The notes beneath the pieces are model-generated. The model did not search any database and was not told the origin of the DNA. It worked only from the letters and a program-made list of their open reading frames with translations. The translations under genes were made by a program, and so were the position numbers. Positions 2,732 to 11,428 of a DNA stretch of 64,000 nt are shown piece by piece. Source of the DNA: Rhodocyclaceae bacterium (GTDB taxonomy: Bacteria > Pseudomonadota > Gammaproteobacteria > Burkholderiales > Rhodocyclaceae); contig JAVBXY010000038.1 in the NCBI GenBank assembly GCA_030824275.1, positions 62,001 through 126,000 of the forward strand. The letters are read 5' to 3'. Within the stretch, counting starts at the first letter, position 1, and each line of letters opens with the position of its first letter.

Positions 2732-3457
2732 TCAGTCCTTGCGCGGCGGCCGTTCTAGATTCAGGCCAAGGTAAAGGGCGACGACGATACCGGCGAAGAT
2801 GAACCACTGGACTGCGTAGGCGATGTTCCGCTCCGGTTGCAAGGGCGGTGTGGCTTGCGCATGGCTGCCTTGCTGTTCCAGGCGCAAGGTATAGGGCAGC
2901 AGCGGTAGCGCCAGCGTCGTGGCAAGGGCGGGGATATCCAGATGCTGGACACGCAGAGTTCCGGCGCCCAATGTTTCGATGCCGGCATCCCCGCGCGCAG
3001 GAGCAGGGGCCTGCGCGATGCCGCGCAGCACCGCTTGGCCATGAGGTGCGCCCACTTCCGGCACGCGATCCCGGCGCTCCAGCGGTACCCAGCCCCGCTC
3101 GACGAGTACCGTGCCTTGTCCGTCGTCCAGTTGCAGCGGCGTGAACACCGCGTAGCCGGCGCGACCATTGCGCACCCGGTTGTCGAGCAGGACGTGATGC
3201 CCGTCGTGCCAGCGGCCGGTCACGCTGATGCCCGCCATGGCGGTGGCTGACACCAGCGCACGCTTGGCCTCCGCTCGTTGCAATTGCCAGAAACCAAGCC
3301 CGACGAAAAAGAGTGTGCCGAGCAGGGCAATGAGCGTGATCAGCGGGCGCGGATGGAAACGCCAGCCACGGGGCTGCAAACCGGGCTGCACGCCGGCATG
3401 GACGGCAGGCTTGTGCTGGCTATACTTTTCCTGATACACCGATTCCGCTGCGGCCAA
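2732..3457 (-). CDS. SURF1 family cytochrome c oxidase assembly protein
   Basis: SURF1-like inner-membrane protein, in known systems needed for heme a insertion into oxidase subunit I. Family marks are visible: an N-terminal helix ending in GFWQLQRAEAKR, the central VLVERGWVP stretch, and a C-terminal helix starting YAVQWFIFAG. The two membrane helices flank a periplasmic domain. The longest frame starts at a TTG whose position coincides with the start of the divergent DUF2909 gene. SURF1 proteins usually begin shortly before the first helix, so the true start may lie 20-35 codons further in. It sits at the distal end of the oxidase cluster. Confidence 0.85.
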   Translation of the reverse strand: MAAAESVYQEKYSQHKPAVHAGVQPGLQPRGWRFHPRPLITLIALLGTLFFVGLGFWQLQRAEAKRALVSATAMAGISVTGRWHDGHHVLLDNRVRNGRAGYAVFTPLQLDDGQGTVLVERGWVPLERRDRVPEVGAPHGQAVLRGIAQAPAPARGDAGIETLGAGTLRVQHLDIPALATTLALPLLPYTLRLEQQGSHAQATPPLQPERNIAYAVQWFIFAGIVVALYLGLNLERPPRKD

Positions 3458-3678
3458 TGCACACCTCCTTTACCGTCAAGCTGCTGATCGTCCTCGGCCT
3501 GCTGGCTATCCTTGTCAGTCTCGGTTCGGCGCTGTTCGCGCTGGTTCGCGACAAGGGGCGCTCGCAGCGCACCGTGCGCGCCCTGACCTGGCGCATCGGC
3601 CTGTCGCTGGGTCTGTTCGTCCTGCTGTTGCTGGGTATCGCCACCGGCGTCGTGGTGCCCCACGATATCGGTGGCTAG
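3457..3678 (+). CDS. DUF2909 twin transmembrane protein
   Basis: A 73-residue membrane protein with two predicted helices (about residues 6-27 and 44-66) separated by a short basic loop (RDKGRSQRTVRALTWR). It matches the DUF2909 family, commonly found beside oxidase subunit III and SURF1 genes in betaproteobacteria. It is on the opposite strand to its neighbours and its stop overlaps the coxC stop. A role in oxidase assembly is inferred only from position. Confidence 0.8.
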   Translation: MHTSFTVKLLIVLGLLAILVSLGSALFALVRDKGRSQRTVRALTWRIGLSLGLFVLLLLGIATGVVVPHDIGG

Positions 3679-4553
3679 AGCACATAGACGAAGAGGAACA
3701 GCGCCAGCCAGACCACGTCCACGAAGTGCCAGTACCAGGCGGCGGCCTCGAAGGCGAAATGCCTGTCCGGGGTGAAATGTCCACGCGCCGCGCGTAGCGT
3801 GATCACCGCCAGCATGATGGCGCCGATGCTGACGTGGAGGCCGTGGAATCCGGTGAGCATGAAAAAGGTGGCGCCGTAGATGCCGGACGACAGCTTCAGG
3901 TTCATTGCCGTGTAGGCGTGCCAGTACTCGTAGGCCTGGAGGCAGACGAAGAGGAGGCCGAGGGCAACCGTGCTGGCCAGGCCGATGACCAGCTGGCGCT
4001 GTTTGTCGGCCTTCAGGGCCCAGTGTGCCCAGGTTACGGTGGCGCCGGAACTGAGCAGGATCAGGGTATTGATCGCCGGCAGGCCGAAGGCGCCCATGGC
4101 TTCGCGGATGGCGGCATAGCGGGCCGGATCGGGGGCCTGCAACAGCGGCCAGGTCGCCACGAACGACGGCCACAGCAGCTCATGGGCCAAGCCCTTGTCG
4201 CCCATGCCGCCAAGCCAGGGCACGGAGTAGTTGCGGGCATAGAAGAGCGCGCCGAAAAAGCCGGCGAAGAACATCACTTCGGAGAAGATGAACCAGGCCA
4301 TGCTCCAGCGGAAACTGAGATCGACCTGGTCGCTGTAGCGGCCTTGCATGCTTTCGCCGATGACGGTGCCAAACCAGCCCCACATCATGGCGGCGACGAT
4401 GCCGGCACCGATCACGGTGACGATCTGGCCGCCGGCGATCTGGTTGAGCCAGAGGGCGGCGCCGAGCACCAGCACGAACAGCCCGGCGGAGCCGATCAGC
4501 GGCCAGATGCTGGAATCGGGAACGTAGTAGCGGGGAGTGGCGGCGTGGTCCAT
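3675..4553 (-). CDS. coxC: Cytochrome c oxidase subunit III
   Basis: Subunit III of the aa3-type oxidase, a polytopic inner-membrane protein of 292 residues that stabilises the catalytic core. Family motifs include FRWSMAWFIFSEVMFFAGFF and the C-terminal AAAWYWHFVDVVWLALFLFVY. A longer frame begins at a TTG at 4574, but the ATG at 4553 has a GGAGG seven bases upstream and is chosen. It follows ctaG by 17 bp in the same operon. Its stop overlaps that of the opposing DUF2909 gene by three bases. Confidence 0.93.
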   Translation of the reverse strand: MDHAATPRYYVPDSSIWPLIGSAGLFVLVLGAALWLNQIAGGQIVTVIGAGIVAAMMWGWFGTVIGESMQGRYSDQVDLSFRWSMAWFIFSEVMFFAGFFGALFYARNYSVPWLGGMGDKGLAHELLWPSFVATWPLLQAPDPARYAAIREAMGAFGLPAINTLILLSSGATVTWAHWALKADKQRQLVIGLASTVALGLLFVCLQAYEYWHAYTAMNLKLSSGIYGATFFMLTGFHGLHVSIGAIMLAVITLRAARGHFTPDRHFAFEAAAWYWHFVDVVWLALFLFVYVL

Positions 4554-4570
4554 AGTGGCCTCCGTAGTGC

Positions 4571-5131
4571 TCAATGCGCGGCTGACAGTGCAGCTACCTT
4601 GTCCGGCGCGCTGAAGAAGGTGTAGGAAAGGGTCAGGGTGCCGATGTTCTTCGGTAGATCAGGATCGACGATGAACTGCACCGGCATTTCCTTGGCTTCG
4701 CCCGGCGCCAGGGGCTGGCGCGAGAAGCAGAAGCATTCGAGCTTGCGGAAATGGGATGCCGCCTGCAAGGGCGTGACGCTGGGCACCGCCTGGCCGATGA
4801 CGGCGGCGTTGCCAATGTTGCGGGCATGGAAGCTGGTCAGCACGATGTCGCCGGGATGAACGCGGACGCTGGCGACGGTAGGGCGAAATTCCCAGGGCAG
4901 GTTGCCGCTGGTGTTGGCGACGAACTCGACGATGACATGGCGGCTGGTATCCACCACGGTGGCCCGTGCGGCGACGGCCTCGATGCGAGAGGTTGTGCCG
5001 TTGAAGCCCGTCCATTCGCAGACCACGCGGTAGATCGGCACCAGCAGGTAGCCGAAGCCGAACATGGCCGTCGCCACCAGGGCCAGTTTCCAGCCCATGC
5101 GGCGCGAGGAGGAGGGGGCGACAGTATCCAT
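4571..5131 (-). CDS. ctaG: Cytochrome c oxidase assembly protein CtaG (Cox11 family)
   Basis: Copper chaperone that delivers copper to the CuB site of subunit I. The 186-residue protein has one N-terminal helix (about residues 13-33) and a periplasmic domain with the copper-binding CFCF motif in LECFCFSRQPLAPGE, plus the typical ending DPDLPKNIGTLTLSYTFF. It lies between the small oxidase-associated protein and subunit III, the usual order in proteobacterial oxidase operons. Confidence 0.93.
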   Translation of the reverse strand: MDTVAPSSSRRMGWKLALVATAMFGFGYLLVPIYRVVCEWTGFNGTTSRIEAVAARATVVDTSRHVIVEFVANTSGNLPWEFRPTVASVRVHPGDIVLTSFHARNIGNAAVIGQAVPSVTPLQAASHFRKLECFCFSRQPLAPGEAKEMPVQFIVDPDLPKNIGTLTLSYTFFSAPDKVAALSAAH

Positions 5132-5284: not shown

Positions 5285-6856
5285 TCAATGCAACTTCGGC
5301 GGTTCGCTGAAACTGTGGTGGGGTGGCGGCGAGGAAAGCGTCCATTCCAGTCCCTCGGCGCCTTCCCAGACCTGGCCGCTGGCCGGCTGGCCCTTGCCGC
5401 TCATGGCCCGTAGCACGATGTAGAGGAAGATCAGCTGCGAGGCGCCGAAGACGAAGCCGCCCACCGAGGAGACCATGTTCCAGCCGGTGAATTGCGTTGC
5501 ATAGTCGGGAATGCGCCGCGGCATGCCGGCCAGGCCGAGGAAGTGCTGGGGGAAGAACAGCATGTTCACCGAAATCGCCGACAGCCAGAAGTGCAGCTTG
5601 CCGAGGCGTTCGTCATACATGACGCCGGTCCATTTCGGCAGCCAGAAATAGACCCCGGCGATGATGGCGAAGACGGCGCCGGTGACCAGCACGTAATGGA
5701 AATGGGCGACCACGAAATAGGTGTCCTGGTACTGGAAGTCCACCGGCGCAAGGCCCAGCATCAGCCCGGAAAAGCCGCCGATGGTGAATAGCACGATGAA
5801 CGAGAGTGCCCACAGCATGGGCGTCTCGAAGGTGAGCGAGCCGCGCCACATGGTCGCCACCCAGTTGAAGACCTTGACCCCCGTCGGCACGGCAATGAGG
5901 ATGGTCGAATACATGAAGAACAGCTCGCCCGCCAGCGGCATGCCGACGGTGAACATGTGGTGGGCCCAGACGATGAAGGAGAGGGCGGCGATGGCGCCCA
6001 CCGCATAGACCATGGAGCGGTAGCCGAACAGGGGCTTGCGGGCAAAGGCCGGAACGATGTGAGAGACAATGCCGAAGGCCGGCAGGATCATGATGTACAC
6101 CTCGGGATGGCCGAAGAACCAGAACACATGCTGGAACATCACCGGGTCGCCGCCGCCAGCGGCGTCGAAGAAGCTGGTGCCGAAATACTTGTCGGTCAGC
6201 AGCATGGTCACCACACCGGCCAGCACCGGCATAGCCGCGATGAGCAGGAAGGCGGTGATGATCCAGGTCCAGACGAACATCGGAAGCTTGAAGAAGGTCA
6301 TGCCCGGTGCACGCATGTTGAACACCGTGGTGATGACGTTGATTGCACCCATCACCGAAGAGATGCCCATCAGGTGGATGGCGAAGATCAGGAAGGGAAA
6401 GGCCATGCCGGTCTGAAGGACCAAAGGCGGGTACATGGTCCAGCCGCCGGAGGGCGGCCCACCGGGCATGAACCAGGTGGCGAGCAGCATGGCGAAAGCG
6501 AAGGGAAGAATCCAGAAGCTCCAGTTGTTGAGGCGCGGCAGGGCCATGTCCGGGGCGCCGATCATCATCGGGATCATCCAGTTGGCCAGTCCGACGAAGG
6601 CCGGCATGACGGCGCCGAAGATCATCACCAGGGCGTGCATGGTGGTCATCTGGTTGAAGGTCATCGGCTCGACGACCTGCAATCCCGGCTGAAACAATTC
6701 GGCGCGGATCACCATGGCGAAACTGCCGCCGGTGAGGAACATCAGCGCCGAGAAGCACAGGTAGAGCGTGCCGATGTCCTTGTGGTTGGTGCTGAACAGC
6801 CAGCGCTGGAGGCCGCTTGGTGCGGCGTGGTGGTGGTCGAGTGCGATGTCGGTCAT
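5285..6856 (-). CDS. coxA: Cytochrome c oxidase subunit I
   Basis: Catalytic heme-copper subunit of 523 residues, inner membrane, reducing O2 and pumping protons. Ligand motifs are intact: [11 protein letters not shown] (low-spin heme), [11 protein letters not shown] (CuB histidine, the cross-linked tyrosine and the glutamate of A-type D-channel enzymes), IVWAHHMF (CuB histidine pair) and VVAHFHYVL (both hemes). It follows coxB by 13 bp and precedes the 46-residue small protein by 3 bp, consistent with one operon. Confidence 0.97.
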
Positions 6857-6869
6857 GTTGTCCCCCTGA

Positions 6870-7952
6870 TTATTTGCGTGCGCTCTTGACCTGGGCCGAC
6901 TGCACCATGTCGCCGGCGCTGTTGCCCCAGGAGTTGCGCTCGTAGGTGATGACCGCCGCGATCTCGAGGTCGGACAACTGGCCGGCGAAGGCCTGCATGG
7001 CAGTACCGGTCTTGCCGTTCATGACGGTGTCGAGGTGCGCGGCCAGCGGGCCATTGGCTACCGGGCTGGCCTTGAGCGGCTTGAACACATTGGGGATGCC
7101 TTCGCCGCCGGGCTGGTGGCAAGCCACGCACATGCGCTCGTAAACCGCCTTGCCCTGAGTCATCATTTCCTCGCGGGTATAGGTTCGGCCGGCGCTGGCG
7201 GCTGCGGTGGCCTGCGCCGTCTTCTTCGTTGCCACCCATTTCTGGTAGTCGGCCTCGTCCATCGCCACCATCACGATGGGCATGAAGCCGTGGCCGACGC
7301 CGCACAGTTCGGTGCATTGGCCGCGATAGGTGCCCGGCTCATCCACCCGCGCCCACATCTCGTTGATGAAGCCGGGAATGGCGTCTTTCTTGACGCCGAG
7401 ATCGGGTATCCACCAGGAATGGATCACGTCGCTGGCCGTAGCGAGGAAGCGGATCTTCTTGCCCACCGGCACCACCAGCGGGTTGTCCACCTCCAGCAGG
7501 TAGTTTTTCACTGTATGCGGATCGATACCCGAGTCGCGCCGCGAAGCCTCGGCGCTCTTGGCGTCGAGGGAACTCAGGAAGCCGAAGCCTTCGTTGACGT
7601 AGTCGTAGCGCCAGCGCCACTGCTGGCCGGTGATGCGGATCGTGACGTCGGCGGCGCTGGTATCGGCGCCGCGCATCAGTGCGCTGGTGGCGGGAAAGGC
7701 AAGGGCGACCAGGATCAGGAAAGGCACCAGCGTCCACGCGATCTCCAGCGGTGTGTGGTCGTGGAAGCTGGCGGCCACGGCACCTCGCGACTTGCGGTGA
7801 TAGATGACGACCCAGAGGATGGCACCGAAGACGATGATGCCGATAGCCACGCAGAGCCACAGTGCGATCATGTGCAGGTCGTAGGCATCGCGGCTGATCG
7901 AGGTCACGCCGCGCGGCAGGTTGAGCGGAAAGCTGAGGCTGGTGTCGCTCAT
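6870..7952 (-). CDS. coxB: Cytochrome c oxidase subunit II with fused cytochrome c domain
   Basis: Subunit II of 360 residues, larger than the usual 250-300 because a class I cytochrome c domain is fused at the C-terminus. Two N-terminal helices are followed by the cupredoxin domain with CuA ligands (HSWWIPDLG and [13 protein letters not shown], near residue 213) and then the heme-binding CVACH near residue 274. This is the caa3-type layout. No clear cleavable signal precedes the first helix. Its ATG overlaps the stop of the DUF2244 gene (ATGA). Confidence 0.93.
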
Positions 7953-8461
7953 CGCAGACCCCCGGCAGGAAGGGTGACATCAAGGCTGCGTTGGCCAAGC
8001 AGGCGGGCCAACCATGCGGCAAGCCGGTGCCGCTCGTCGACATCGAGGAAAGCGCCGACCTCCAACTGCCGGTCGCCGGCGCGGATCATCAAGTGGCTGC
8101 CGGCCTCGCTGGATGGTTCGAGCAGGACCACCTCGGTTGCGCCTCGCGCGAACTCGAAGCGTTCCTCAGGCCGACGGTGGCCGCGCTCCACTGCAATGGC
8201 ATCGTCGGTCAGGGAGACGACCTCGCGTATCTGGGTGCGCCGATAGCCGCTGCGGAAGGCGATGCCCAGCACCGCGACCATGGTCAGCGAGGCCGGCATG
8301 GCGTACCAGTTGCCGAGAAAACCGCTGATCACGGCGACGCCGATGATGGGCGTGCTGACGGCAATAAACAGCAATATGGATGCGCGCACCGAGAAGGGCG
8401 CGTAATGGGTGAGAACGGCGCATGCATCATGGCCGCCTGGATCGCCTGTGGTTGCAACCAT
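7949..8461 (-). CDS. DUF2244 membrane protein
   Basis: First gene of the oxidase operon. DUF2244 proteins are small membrane proteins common at this position. Two adjacent helices (about residues 25-70) are followed by a soluble C-terminal domain containing GYRRTQIREVV and a run of beta-type sequence. The longest frame starts at 8476, but the ATG at 8461 has GGAGGAG six bases upstream and is preferred. It is translationally coupled to coxB. A role in oxidase assembly is plausible but unproven. Confidence 0.8.
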   Translation of the reverse strand: MVATTGDPGGHDACAVLTHYAPFSVRASILLFIAVSTPIIGVAVISGFLGNWYAMPASLTMVAVLGIAFRSGYRRTQIREVVSLTDDAIAVERGHRRPEERFEFARGATEVVLLEPSSEAGSHLMIRAGDRQLEVGAFLDVDERHRLAAWLARLLGQRSLDVTLPAGGLR

Positions 8462-8566
8462 GATCGTCTCCTCCATGGTCGTCCTGGCGTCGTCCCTCCC
8501 TGGCAGTTTCTGCGACTACGGGACGAATTGTTTGTGTGTTGGCAGCATAGGACGTTGGCGTTAAAA

Positions 8567-8591
8567 ATACCAGACAAATTTAGTCGGGTAT
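8567..8591. promoter_or_regulatory. Rrf2/IscR type-1-like operator, box 1
   Basis: Imperfect 25-bp palindrome with left arm ATACCAGAC, centre AAATTT and right arm AGTCGGGTAT. It fits the known IscR type-1 pattern (outer ATA/TAT, inner GAC and AGTC at the same spacing) at all but two positions. It lies about 105 bp upstream of the first gene of the oxidase operon. Binding by IscR or a related Rrf2 protein is an inference from the motif. Confidence 0.5.
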
Positions 8592-8629
8592 AACCGCTTT
8601 ACTGTACGGGTTTTTGGGAGAGTGTTGTA

Positions 8630-8654
8630 ATGGCGGACAAATTTAGTCGGCATG
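8630..8654. promoter_or_regulatory. Rrf2/IscR-like operator, box 2
   Basis: Second copy of the same box. The inner 16 bases (GGACAAATTTAGTCGG) are repeated and the outer arms are weaker (ATGGC and CATG). Its centre is 63 bp from box 1, about six helical turns, so two dimers would sit on the same face of the DNA. It lies between the oxidase operon and the divergent chemoreceptor gene. Confidence 0.4.
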
Positions 8655-8761: not shown

Positions 8762-9982
8762 ATGACACTGCGCAACCGTCTTGTTGCCGTCCTCGCGATC
8801 CTTGCCGGGGCGACGCTGGTGGCCAATGGCACCAGTCTCTATCTTTTCATGCACCTCGCCAGCGAGGCCTCGGCCCTAAGTCCGGCGCTGCGCGAATTCG
8901 CCGACTCCGCCCGCTGGACGATCATCATCGTCAGCGGCATCGCGTCCCTGGTCGGCCTGGCTGCCTTCGTCCAGTTGTTGCGGATGATCCTCGGCCTGAT
9001 CGGCGGCGAGCCGCAGTACGTGGCCGATGCCGTCAAGCGCATCGCTGGCGGCGATCTCGCCTTTCGGCTCCAGTTGCGGCCCGGCGATACGGACAGCCTG
9101 TGCGCCGCCATCGCCGGCATGCAGGAAAAGTTGCGGCAGACGGTCGGCGAGCTGTCCGATGCCAGCCAGAAGCTGGATGCCTCGGTAAGCCATATCGGTA
9201 CCATGAGCGGTGACATCCTCGACAGTTCCGGGCGCCAGAGCAGCGCAGCCCAGGCCACCGCCGCGACCCTCGATCAACTCTCGGCCGCGCTTGGGCAGGT
9301 GAGCGGCAATGCGGCCAGCGTCAGCAGCCAGATCGGTGCCAGCCTGGAGCGCACCCAGGCCGCCAATGAAAGCCTGTCGCACCTGATCGGCGAGATTTCC
9401 GCCGTCGAAGAGGCGGTGGGCGAGATCGCCAGCACCGCTACTGAATTCATCGAAAGCACCAAGGCCATCGCCGGCATGACGCGGGAAGTGCGCGACATTG
9501 CCGACCAGACCAATCTGCTGGCCCTCAACGCCGCCATCGAGGCGGCCCGCGCTGGCGAACAGGGACGCGGCTTCGCCGTCGTGGCCGACGAGGTACGCAA
9601 GCTGGCCGAGAAATCCGCCGTTGCCGCCGCGCAGATCGACACCGTCACCCAGTCCATGGGTGGGCGTTCCGGCGACGTGGAAAGCGCCATCCAGCGTGGC
9701 CTCGCCTCGCTGGGTACCAGCCAGGAATATCTCGAGGAAGTGGCCATCGCCCTCGGCGAATCCAACGAGGCCGTGCAGCAGACCACCGGCGACGCCGAAC
9801 TGATCGTCGGCTCGGCAAGGGAACAAGCGCAGGCGACCGAACTGGTGGCCCGCCATGTGAACGAGATGTCCGGCATGGCCGGTGAAATCCGCACCGCGCA
9901 GGAACGGGCGGTGGCCGCTGTGCGCGACCTGGAAACCCTATCAGGCCGGCTGGCGACAGCGGCCGGCCGCTTCCAGGTCTGA
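8762..9982 (+). CDS. Methyl-accepting chemotaxis protein (small sensor loop)
   Basis: Chemoreceptor of 406 residues with two membrane helices (about 6-28 and 42-63) separated by only a short periplasmic loop, then HAMP and a signalling domain with the hairpin tip near residue 255. The small loop suggests sensing within or near the membrane, or through a partner. A GTG at 8735 would add nine residues, but the ATG at 8762 with AGGA eight bases upstream is favoured. The 3' end is 15 bp from the convergent caspase-like gene. Confidence 0.92.
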
Positions 9983-9997
9983 GACAGCTTCCGAGGC

Positions 9998-11428
9998 CTA
10001 CTTGGCCTTCAGCCGCTTGATCCGGTTCCTAGCGATCTCGGCGAAGCGGCCGTTCGGGTATTGCCGCAGGTAGGCGTCGAAGTCCTCGGCCTCCTGGCTG
10101 TCTTTTACCGATTGCCAGAACAGCAGTTCCGCTTCCGTGTCGGTGCTGCCGGATGAGGTGGACGCAGCGGGTTTGGCCGGCAATGACCGGGTGGCGAAAA
10201 AGAAGTCGCCGGTCAGGGAGGATGCCTCCCAGGGCACCTGCATGTCGCCGGTCATCTGTACTACCTCGCCGCGCACCCGCTTGAACACGGTCTCCACCGG
10301 CAGGCCCGGCTCGCCTAGCACCTTCAGCAGCGCCGTCGTATAGGTGGAGTTGGCGCCGTCGCCGTCGAGGGCTACCTTGCCCGGCGCAGTGGCGTAGGCA
10401 ATCAGGGTGCCCTTGGGTGCTTCCATCTGCGCGAGGCCGCCGCTGACGCCCCGGAAACGGCGTTCGAAGGGATTGTTGCGGCAGGCGTCGAGGATCACCA
10501 CGTTGAGCGGGCTGGGTGACAACTGGTCGAGGATGGTGTCCACATCCACCGCTTCGGCGCGGGCGGAATTCTCCGAGGCGATTTGCGCGTCGATGGGAAT
10601 CAGGTAGTTTTTGCCCTTGATCTGGATGCCATGGCCGGCGAAGAAGAACATGCCGACGTCGTGACCGGCGAGGCGCTCGCCGAAACGCGCCACCAGCCGG
10701 TTCATGTCGCGCTGGCCGAGGTTCTCGCCGAGCATGACCTCGAAGCCGAGGGTGCGCAGCTTGTTGGCGAGGGCGCGGGCGTCGTTGACCGGGTTTTTCA
10801 GCGGTGCTTCGCGGTAGGCGCCGTTGCCGATCACAAGGGCGAGGCGTTTGCCGCTGGATGGGACTACGGCTATCGCCGTCGCGCTACCGGTCAGCGACGG
10901 GGCGGCTGCGGCGACAGGTACAGCGGGTGCTGCAGGTGAAATGGGCGTCAGGACCGTGGTGCTTGCCGCGCCAGGCACGACGCGCGCGCTGCGCAGATGG
11001 GCGACGTCCAGCTTGCGGCGTTCCACTTCGGTGCGCACCGAGGCCAGTTCGCGTTCGTAATCGCCGGCGTCGGTAAAGAATTCAAATTCGCCGCGATGCC
11101 CCCATTGATCAATACCGTAACCCTTGCCCTGAGACATCGATACGGCACGGGAGTCGGTCTTGATGACTCGCTGATCGTCGCATTGGAGTTCTCCTCTGGA
11201 CTTGCCAGGCGCGTAATCCGTGAACTTTCCCGTGCAGCGGCTGCCGAGTTTGGCAAAGCGGATCTCTGCTTCACCCCTGCCGGCCAGCGGGTCGGCGCTG
11301 CCGGTGCCGGTCATGTAATCCGACCAGTCATCCGTGTGCCCGACGATGAAGACCTTGACGCAACCGCCAAGCAGCAGCGCGGCGGCGATCAGAATCAGGT
11401 GTTGCCAGGATGGGACGCGGGGAGACAT
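9998..11428 (-). CDS. Caspase-like (peptidase C14 family) lipoprotein
   Basis: Protein of 476 residues with a lipoprotein signal (hydrophobic stretch ending LLGGC, Cys23), so it is probably anchored in the outer or inner membrane facing the periplasm. After a region of about 180 residues ending in an Ala/Pro-rich linker comes a caspase fold. RLALVIGNGAYREAPLKNPV starts it, the catalytic His lies in FFFAGHGIQ (about residue 265) and the Cys in VILDACRNNPF (about 315). A C-terminal stretch, EDFDAYLRQYPNGRFAEIA, resembles a short TPR-like repeat often appended to such proteins. Substrate and role are unknown. Confidence 0.8.
   Translation of the reverse strand: MSPRVPSWQHLILIAAALLLGGCVKVFIVGHTDDWSDYMTGTGSADPLAGRGEAEIRFAKLGSRCTGKFTDYAPGKSRGELQCDDQRVIKTDSRAVSMSQGKGYGIDQWGHRGEFEFFTDAGDYERELASVRTEVERRKLDVAHLRSARVVPGAASTTVLTPISPAAPAVPVAAAAPSLTGSATAIAVVPSSGKRLALVIGNGAYREAPLKNPVNDARALANKLRTLGFEVMLGENLGQRDMNRLVARFGERLAGHDVGMFFFAGHGIQIKGKNYLIPIDAQIASENSARAEAVDVDTILDQLSPSPLNVVILDACRNNPFERRFRGVSGGLAQMEAPKGTLIAYATAPGKVALDGDGANSTYTTALLKVLGEPGLPVETVFKRVRGEVVQMTGDMQVPWEASSLTGDFFFATRSLPAKPAASTSSGSTDTEAELLFWQSVKDSQEAEDFDAYLRQYPNGRFAEIARNRIKRLKAK

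Follow-up and report, generated by a model that had tools for sequence, protein, structure and literature searches.

The closest described counterparts of the elements reported here are the IscR type-1 operators at the isc promoters of Escherichia coli and Pseudomonas aeruginosa. The P. aeruginosa isc promoter carries two such sites, one strong and one weak (sites B and A), of which one dominates; they abut, at -67 to -43 and -42 to -18 (PMC6599224, in the parts cited here). In the same parts of that study, type-1 sites near a promoter repress and need a cluster on IscR, and cluster-less IscR mutants do not bind (PMC6599224). IscR control extends beyond isc at nfuA, tpx and fprB, by means of single type-1 sites near the promoter; these targets, as named in the cited parts of the papers, include no heme-copper oxidase (PMC6599224; PMC4521836; PMC6084964).

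Oxidase genes are affected by IscR in Caulobacter crescentus. In an iscR mutant, the cbb3 and bd operons are up and qox is down, an effect described as running via FixK, with apo-IscR at a type-II-like motif; the regulatory regions of rpoH and sodB are bound by IscR there as well (PMC11475020, in the parts cited here). In the literature that we searched, this route via FixK was the only IscR action on oxidases (PMC11475020, in part). The search combined IscR with cytochrome c, aa3, caa3 and terminal oxidases and covered titles and abstract openings, with subscription journals mostly outside it; no type-1 site at an aa3/caa3 operon was reported there.

Here, two related boxes were examined in a 64-kb window of a Rhodocyclaceae genome, the window being the whole stretch of DNA that was analysed. 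Both lie in a divergent intergenic region of 286 bp, flanked by an oxidase operon on the minus strand and, on the plus strand, by a chemoreceptor gene (Table 1). The GC content of this region is 47.6%, compared with 63.8% for the window. The start of box 1 is 91 bp from the ATG at 8476 of the DUF2244 gene, and the end of box 2 is 107 bp from the chemoreceptor ATG at 8762. An alternative start of the DUF2244 gene, ATG 8461, is preceded by a GGAGGAG stretch. ATG 8762 is the probable start of the chemoreceptor, the listed open frame of which begins with GTG 8735. The chemoreceptor gene is adjoined by a gene for a lipoprotein-like protein with a caspase domain (9998-11428; PF00656, 151 bits).

Table 1 Features of the oxidase locus and matches to the IscR model elsewhere in the genome. 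Positions are those of the window unless a contig is given; E values are those of the model R1.
Feature	Position	Strand	R1 E value	Remarks
SURF1 assembly protein	2732..3457	(-)		PF02104
Oxidase subunit III	3675..4574	(-)		PF00510
CtaG/Cox11 assembly protein	4571..5131	(-)		PF04442
Oxidase subunit I	5285..6856	(-)		PF00115; TIGR02891 CtaD_CoxA over cut-off
Oxidase subunit II with fused cytochrome c domain (caa3-like)	6870..7952	(-)		COX2, COX2_TM, Cytochrome_CBB3
DUF2244 membrane protein, first gene of the oxidase operon	7949..8476	(-)		PF10003, 83.9 bits
Box 1	8567..8591	(-)	0.42 and 0.44 (two strands)	ATACCAGACAAATTTAGTCGGGTAT; IscR type-1-like candidate operator, near-palindrome; read towards the oxidase operon, ATACCCGACTAAATTTGTCTGGTAT
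Box 2	8630..8654	(-)		ATGGCGGACAAATTTAGTCGGCATG; weaker copy, 15-base core as in box 1, proper outer arms absent
Divergent chemoreceptor gene	8762..9982	(+)		MCPsignal, 112 bits
iscR, two sites			0.009, 0.024	
grxD	contig 16, 279592-279614 (L146:3591-3615)		0.05	Grx4 monothiol glutaredoxin by TIGR00365
dxs-folE2	contig 1, 106810-106833 (L141)		0.22	Dxs and FolE2 named by NCBIfam
sodB	contig 18, 43548-43572 (L010)		0.37	A few tens of bases 5' of the SOD gene
rpoH	contig 10, 29510-29534 (L008:4510-4534)		0.60	RpoH by NCBIfam
Partial match	contig 7		4.9	

An earlier sequence-only reading had described two 25-bp boxes with a common core, 63 bp apart, between the oxidase operon and the chemoreceptor gene, and the sequence confirmed all of this. 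The boxes are identical at 18 of 25 positions, and 63 bp is their start-to-start spacing, with a gap of 38 bp between them. The stretch GACAAATTTAGTC is present in both, and the part that they have in common is actually longer (GACAAATTTAGTCGG). Outer ATACC/GGGTAT arms, which the reading had assigned to both boxes, were found in box 1 and are missing from box 2; self-complementarity covers 10 of 12 positions in box 1, compared with 7 of 12 in box 2. Six helical turns of 10.5 bp make up 63 bp, so two dimers bound to the boxes would lie on the same face of the DNA.

The likeness to the isc-promoter operators of E. coli and P. aeruginosa lies in the 25-bp near-palindrome with AT-rich ends, and that to the P. 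aeruginosa isc promoter also in the pairing of a strong with a weak site (PMC6599224, in part). In contrast to isc promoters, the boxes here adjoin an oxidase operon and not Fe-S genes, and they are separated by a gap, whereas the P. aeruginosa sites abut. While the oxidase effect in Caulobacter is described as running through another regulator, the type-1-like site is located here at the oxidase operon itself.

As in E. coli and P. aeruginosa, the genome encodes an IscR with cluster ligands. A single Rrf2 gene exceeded the Pfam cut-off in the assembly (85.3% complete), with two more weak matches below it. Its product was identified as IscR by TIGR02010 (210.8 bits, cut-off 207.55); the narrower, E. 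coli-specific IscR model NF008110 was not reached (188 vs 275 bits). The protein aligned to the E. coli IscR structures with an E value of 1.3e-47 and carries Cys92, Cys98, Cys105, His108 and Glu43; the cluster ligands of P. aeruginosa IscR are C92, C98, C104 and H107 (PMC6599224, in part). The iscR gene shares its contig with the boxes, at a distance of about 79 kb; it lies between cysE and cysteine desulfurase genes, and IscS and an IscU-type scaffold are encoded downstream (NCBIfam). Other members of the Rrf2 family were also considered. In this assembly, 85% complete, the Rrf2 protein reached 29.4 bits with the NsrR model, against a cut-off of 182, and it stayed far under the cut-offs of both the CymR and the RirA models; all three identities were rejected on these scores. 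The suggested link of the oxidase to nitric oxide is thus unsupported, since the only Rrf2 protein over the cut-off in this assembly is IscR.

Box 1 matches the published type-1 consensus ATASYYGACTRWWWYAGTCRRSTAT at 23 of 25 positions. Box 2 matches it at 19 of 25, which, judged by sequence, is not a clear type-1 match on its own. A family motif was learned ab initio, without the E. coli consensus, from the last 250 bp upstream of iscR in 68 other family genomes, this genome being left out of the training set. We set its width to 25 and constrained it to a palindrome, both by choice, and the best of 60 random starts was ATAgttGActAaatTagTCaacTAT. Scored with this motif, box 1 ranked first in the 64-kb window (25.4) and box 2 second (16.7), followed by a third match at 10.0; the better iscR site of the genome scored 27.1, above box 1.

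Windows covering the conserved end of cysE are part of the ab initio set but were left out of a curated one. There, 172 iscR-proximal windows scored at least 12 and 94 of them passed the filter; with 20 of 42 sites further upstream, this gave 111 distinct sites, 77 of which entered the alignment, the curated matrix and the sequence-only model R1. The curated matrix gave 30.0 for box 1 and 14.0 for box 2. Elsewhere in the genome it gave 30.0 and 23.7 for the two iscR sites, 28.6 for sodB, 26.6 for rpoH, 26.0 for folE2 and 21.4 for grxD. By this matrix, box 1 is equal in strength to the best iscR-promoter site of the genome. That box 1 closely fits the IscR type-1 pattern, as first read from the letters, was borne out by its consensus match and by its top rank with a family motif built independently of E. 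coli, and its identification as an IscR type-1-like candidate operator is supported.

Chance expectation was assessed at several scales. The exact 13-mer core has two copies in the 3.58-Mb assembly (85.3% complete, 38 contigs), both at this locus, and a genome scan for the core GACTAAATTTGTC with up to one mismatch added to these a single copy, at rpoH and with one mismatch. With up to three mismatches to the type-1 consensus, the window has one match (box 1, two mismatches), compared with none in 100 shuffles; at three mismatches, the sites returned by the genome scan were box 1 and that at sodB. In the window, a looser core pattern allowing two mismatches was not significant (2 found vs 0.90 expected). 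When the intergenic region was shuffled 20,000 times with dinucleotides preserved, no shuffle reached the 30.0 of box 1 with the family motif, the largest score being 23.8. Among the same shuffles, 5 reached 20, 40 reached 14 (the score of box 2) and none had two matches of at least 14. Eight random sequences of genome length, drawn from a first-order Markov model of 137.5 kb of this genome, had no match of at least 20 with either the ab initio or the curated matrix. A match as good as box 2 is expected 1.25 times per genome with the ab initio motif (16.7) and 1.4 times with the curated matrix (14), so box 2 means little by itself.

The R1 scan of the genome, at E values up to 10, scored 150 of 529 first-look candidates and gave nine matches; the number of places is thus at least eight, box 1 being counted on both strands. 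Box 2 was absent among the matches listed (E up to 10), and it counts against box 1 that it is not unique by E value (0.4). The sequence-only reading had pointed to isc, bfr and other iron genes as places where the box might recur. Matches were found at iscR (two), grxD, sodB, folE2 and rpoH, which bears this expectation out; bfr was absent among the matches listed. Type-1-like boxes at rpoH and sodB are a further likeness to Caulobacter, and control beyond isc has its parallel in nfuA, tpx and fprB of P. aeruginosa.

The grxD box sits 17 bp 5' of the ATG of the Grx4-type glutaredoxin. The dxs-folE2 box lies between both genes and is followed at normal promoter spacing by TATAGT, similar to the layout of the iscR promoter. 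The superoxide dismutase next to the sodB box best fits the iron-type model but remains under its cut-off (310 vs 348).

At rpoH, in this genome as well as in loci L188-L202, the IscR type-1-like box is directly 5' of an exact CIRCE element that precedes rpoH. Among the 30 rpoH loci nearest to that of this genome, 25 were anchored, and the promoter score was at least 20 in 8 and at least 14 in 12. Across all 30 loci (112 kb), 14 matches reached 13, of which 13 lie before rpoH. This conserved site may equal the oxidase box in interest; the rpoH region is also bound by IscR in Caulobacter (PMC11475020, in part).

Across the family, a strict box-1-type pattern occurred at 25 places in 25 of 199 genomes (26 matches, one place being counted on both strands), compared with 10 matches of a reversed control pattern in the same 199 genomes. 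Of the 25 places, eight are next to iscR or some 0.85 kb upstream of it, in the second case presumably in front of cysE, which is the arrangement of this genome; sufB, apbC and a mutY/dsrC-like pair adjoin three more. An R1 match at E up to 0.5 was present in 90 of 101 sampled family genomes. Besides the paired iscR sites, the other genomes (L068-L137) have 42 sites scoring at least 12 about 0.87 to 1.05 kb before iscR, many of them strong (up to 30.2). Their position fits a possible third operator before cysE. The best pre-cysE site of this genome is weak (9.9 to 10.9).

The oxidase operons compared in other genomes lack the box. In 40 regions of about 2.5 kb upstream of subunit II from other family genomes, a test that is blind to promoters further away than this, no site of at least 14 was found near oxidase genes. 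The two matches among these regions (L161, 16.9; L166, 21.2) are about 2.5 kb away, before rpoH. DUF2244 is a neighbour in 6 of the 40, and the box is missing there too. None of 28 further oxidase loci (15 + 13) reached 14 with either matrix; the 15 are from 5 Rhodocyclales MAGs and 10 Halomonas or relatives. The locus sets overlap (L011 and L187 are one locus), the upstream DNA is short in L179 (789 bp) and L014 (410 bp), and all compared genomes are outside the genus of this genome. R1 matches were compared by eye with the places of subunit II in 101 genomes, and no pair within 5 kb was seen among the matches and places listed; the last match listed is stronger than this genome's own oxidase match (E 0.4), so that this comparison carries little weight. 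The sole other oxidase-side candidate seen, one of the 25 places of the strict pattern, was a weak box-like site (13.5) in genome G148, between the gene for subunit III (COX3) and a divergent cytochrome c gene (L053:1412-1436).

Two subunit II genes exceed the cut-off in this genome: one is that of the window, with its fused cytochrome c domain, and the other is on contig 10 (22958 onward), near further oxidase assembly genes and rpoH. No IscR-like match was found at the contig 10 subunit II locus or in the examined stretch of contig 5, with the genome model and matrix scoring.

The oxidase box looks lineage-specific. Its distribution suggests that the site was gained recently or else has no function, and the statistics favour recent gain. 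Because the box is missing from other oxidase operons, conservation offers no argument for function at this site. The targets of IscR vary by lineage, and conservation and promoter position are therefore not strictly defining for type-1 sites.

With moderate confidence, we propose that both boxes are candidate operators of the genome's own IscR and that cluster-loaded IscR represses the oxidase operon until the clusters are lost. When clusters suffice, a [2Fe-2S]-IscR dimer would occupy box 1 in the cell, and a second dimer may bind the weaker box 2 on the same helix face, about six turns away, the two perhaps cooperating. Bound IscR would repress, rather than activate, the DUF2244-caa3/aa3-type oxidase operon, which is the presumed target. 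Once oxygen, oxidants or a shortage of iron had depleted the clusters, apo-IscR would leave the type-1 sites, and the operon would be derepressed along with isc, grxD and further regulon members. Repression by IscR on box 1 is proposed by analogy with the P. aeruginosa sites. A scan of the intergenic region for one promoter type found a single weak site, on the chemoreceptor strand (1 found vs 0.6 expected); since this match is at chance level, that repression works by blocking of a promoter is something that we infer.

A broader version of this proposal is tentative, and we would sooner doubt than accept it: that rewiring in this lineage has brought its high-oxygen oxidase under the Fe-S regulon. 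Two cooperative, possibly looped type-1 operators would then read cluster loss (oxygen or iron shortage) and turn on the caa3-type oxidase with isc, grxD and rpoH, the gene of the heat-shock sigma factor, and respiration would sense oxygen indirectly through IscR, with neither Fnr nor FixK involved.

The remaining explanations appear less probable. IscR might activate the oxidase operon from boxes upstream of the promoter, so that oxidase synthesis would go with an ample supply of clusters. The boxes are at least 90 bp before the first start codon, which leaves room for a promoter downstream of box 1, and IscR activates or represses depending on site position (PMC8262890, in the part cited); yet type-1 sites near promoters repress in P. 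aeruginosa (PMC6599224, in part), and the scan, limited to one promoter type, found no promoter downstream of box 1. We regard activation as unlikely. Slightly less likely still is that IscR binds the boxes to regulate the divergent chemoreceptor, or both genes, so that Fe-S status would tune a taxis receptor. The divergent layout, with box 2 107 bp from the receptor ATG and box 1 91 bp from that of DUF2244, would suit such a role, as would the strand of the only promoter-like match in the region. Against it, of the two boxes it is the stronger that lies closer to the oxidase operon, the promoter match is no better than chance and the other matches of the genome precede metabolic and stress genes, not receptors.

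It is improbable that the boxes belong to a different regulator, such as a second Rrf2 protein that the assembly lacks or an unrelated factor whose palindrome is similar. The incompleteness of the assembly and its two sub-cut-off Rrf2 matches would allow for one, and the exact core is confined to this locus apart from the 1-mismatch copy at rpoH; but the boxes are the top two matches of the window to a motif learned from iscR promoters, and box 1 scores like the iscR sites. A chance or decayed resemblance without function, to which the weakness of box 2 and the box-free oxidase operons elsewhere would point, is very improbable given that no shuffle yielded box 1 or the pair, that no random genome had a match of at least 20 and that a 15-base core is repeated exactly at six helical turns.

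IscR repression of the oxidase operon is the reading that we prefer, and the locus is a credible new candidate target of IscR in one lineage. Heme-copper oxidases contain no Fe-S cluster, and the clusters are needed upstream in the chain, in complex I, complex II and the Rieske protein. The boxes suggest a link between Fe-S supply and respiration that would be particular to this lineage. If true, direct control of a heme-copper oxidase by IscR would couple the supply of clusters to the oxygen-reducing end of the respiratory chain.
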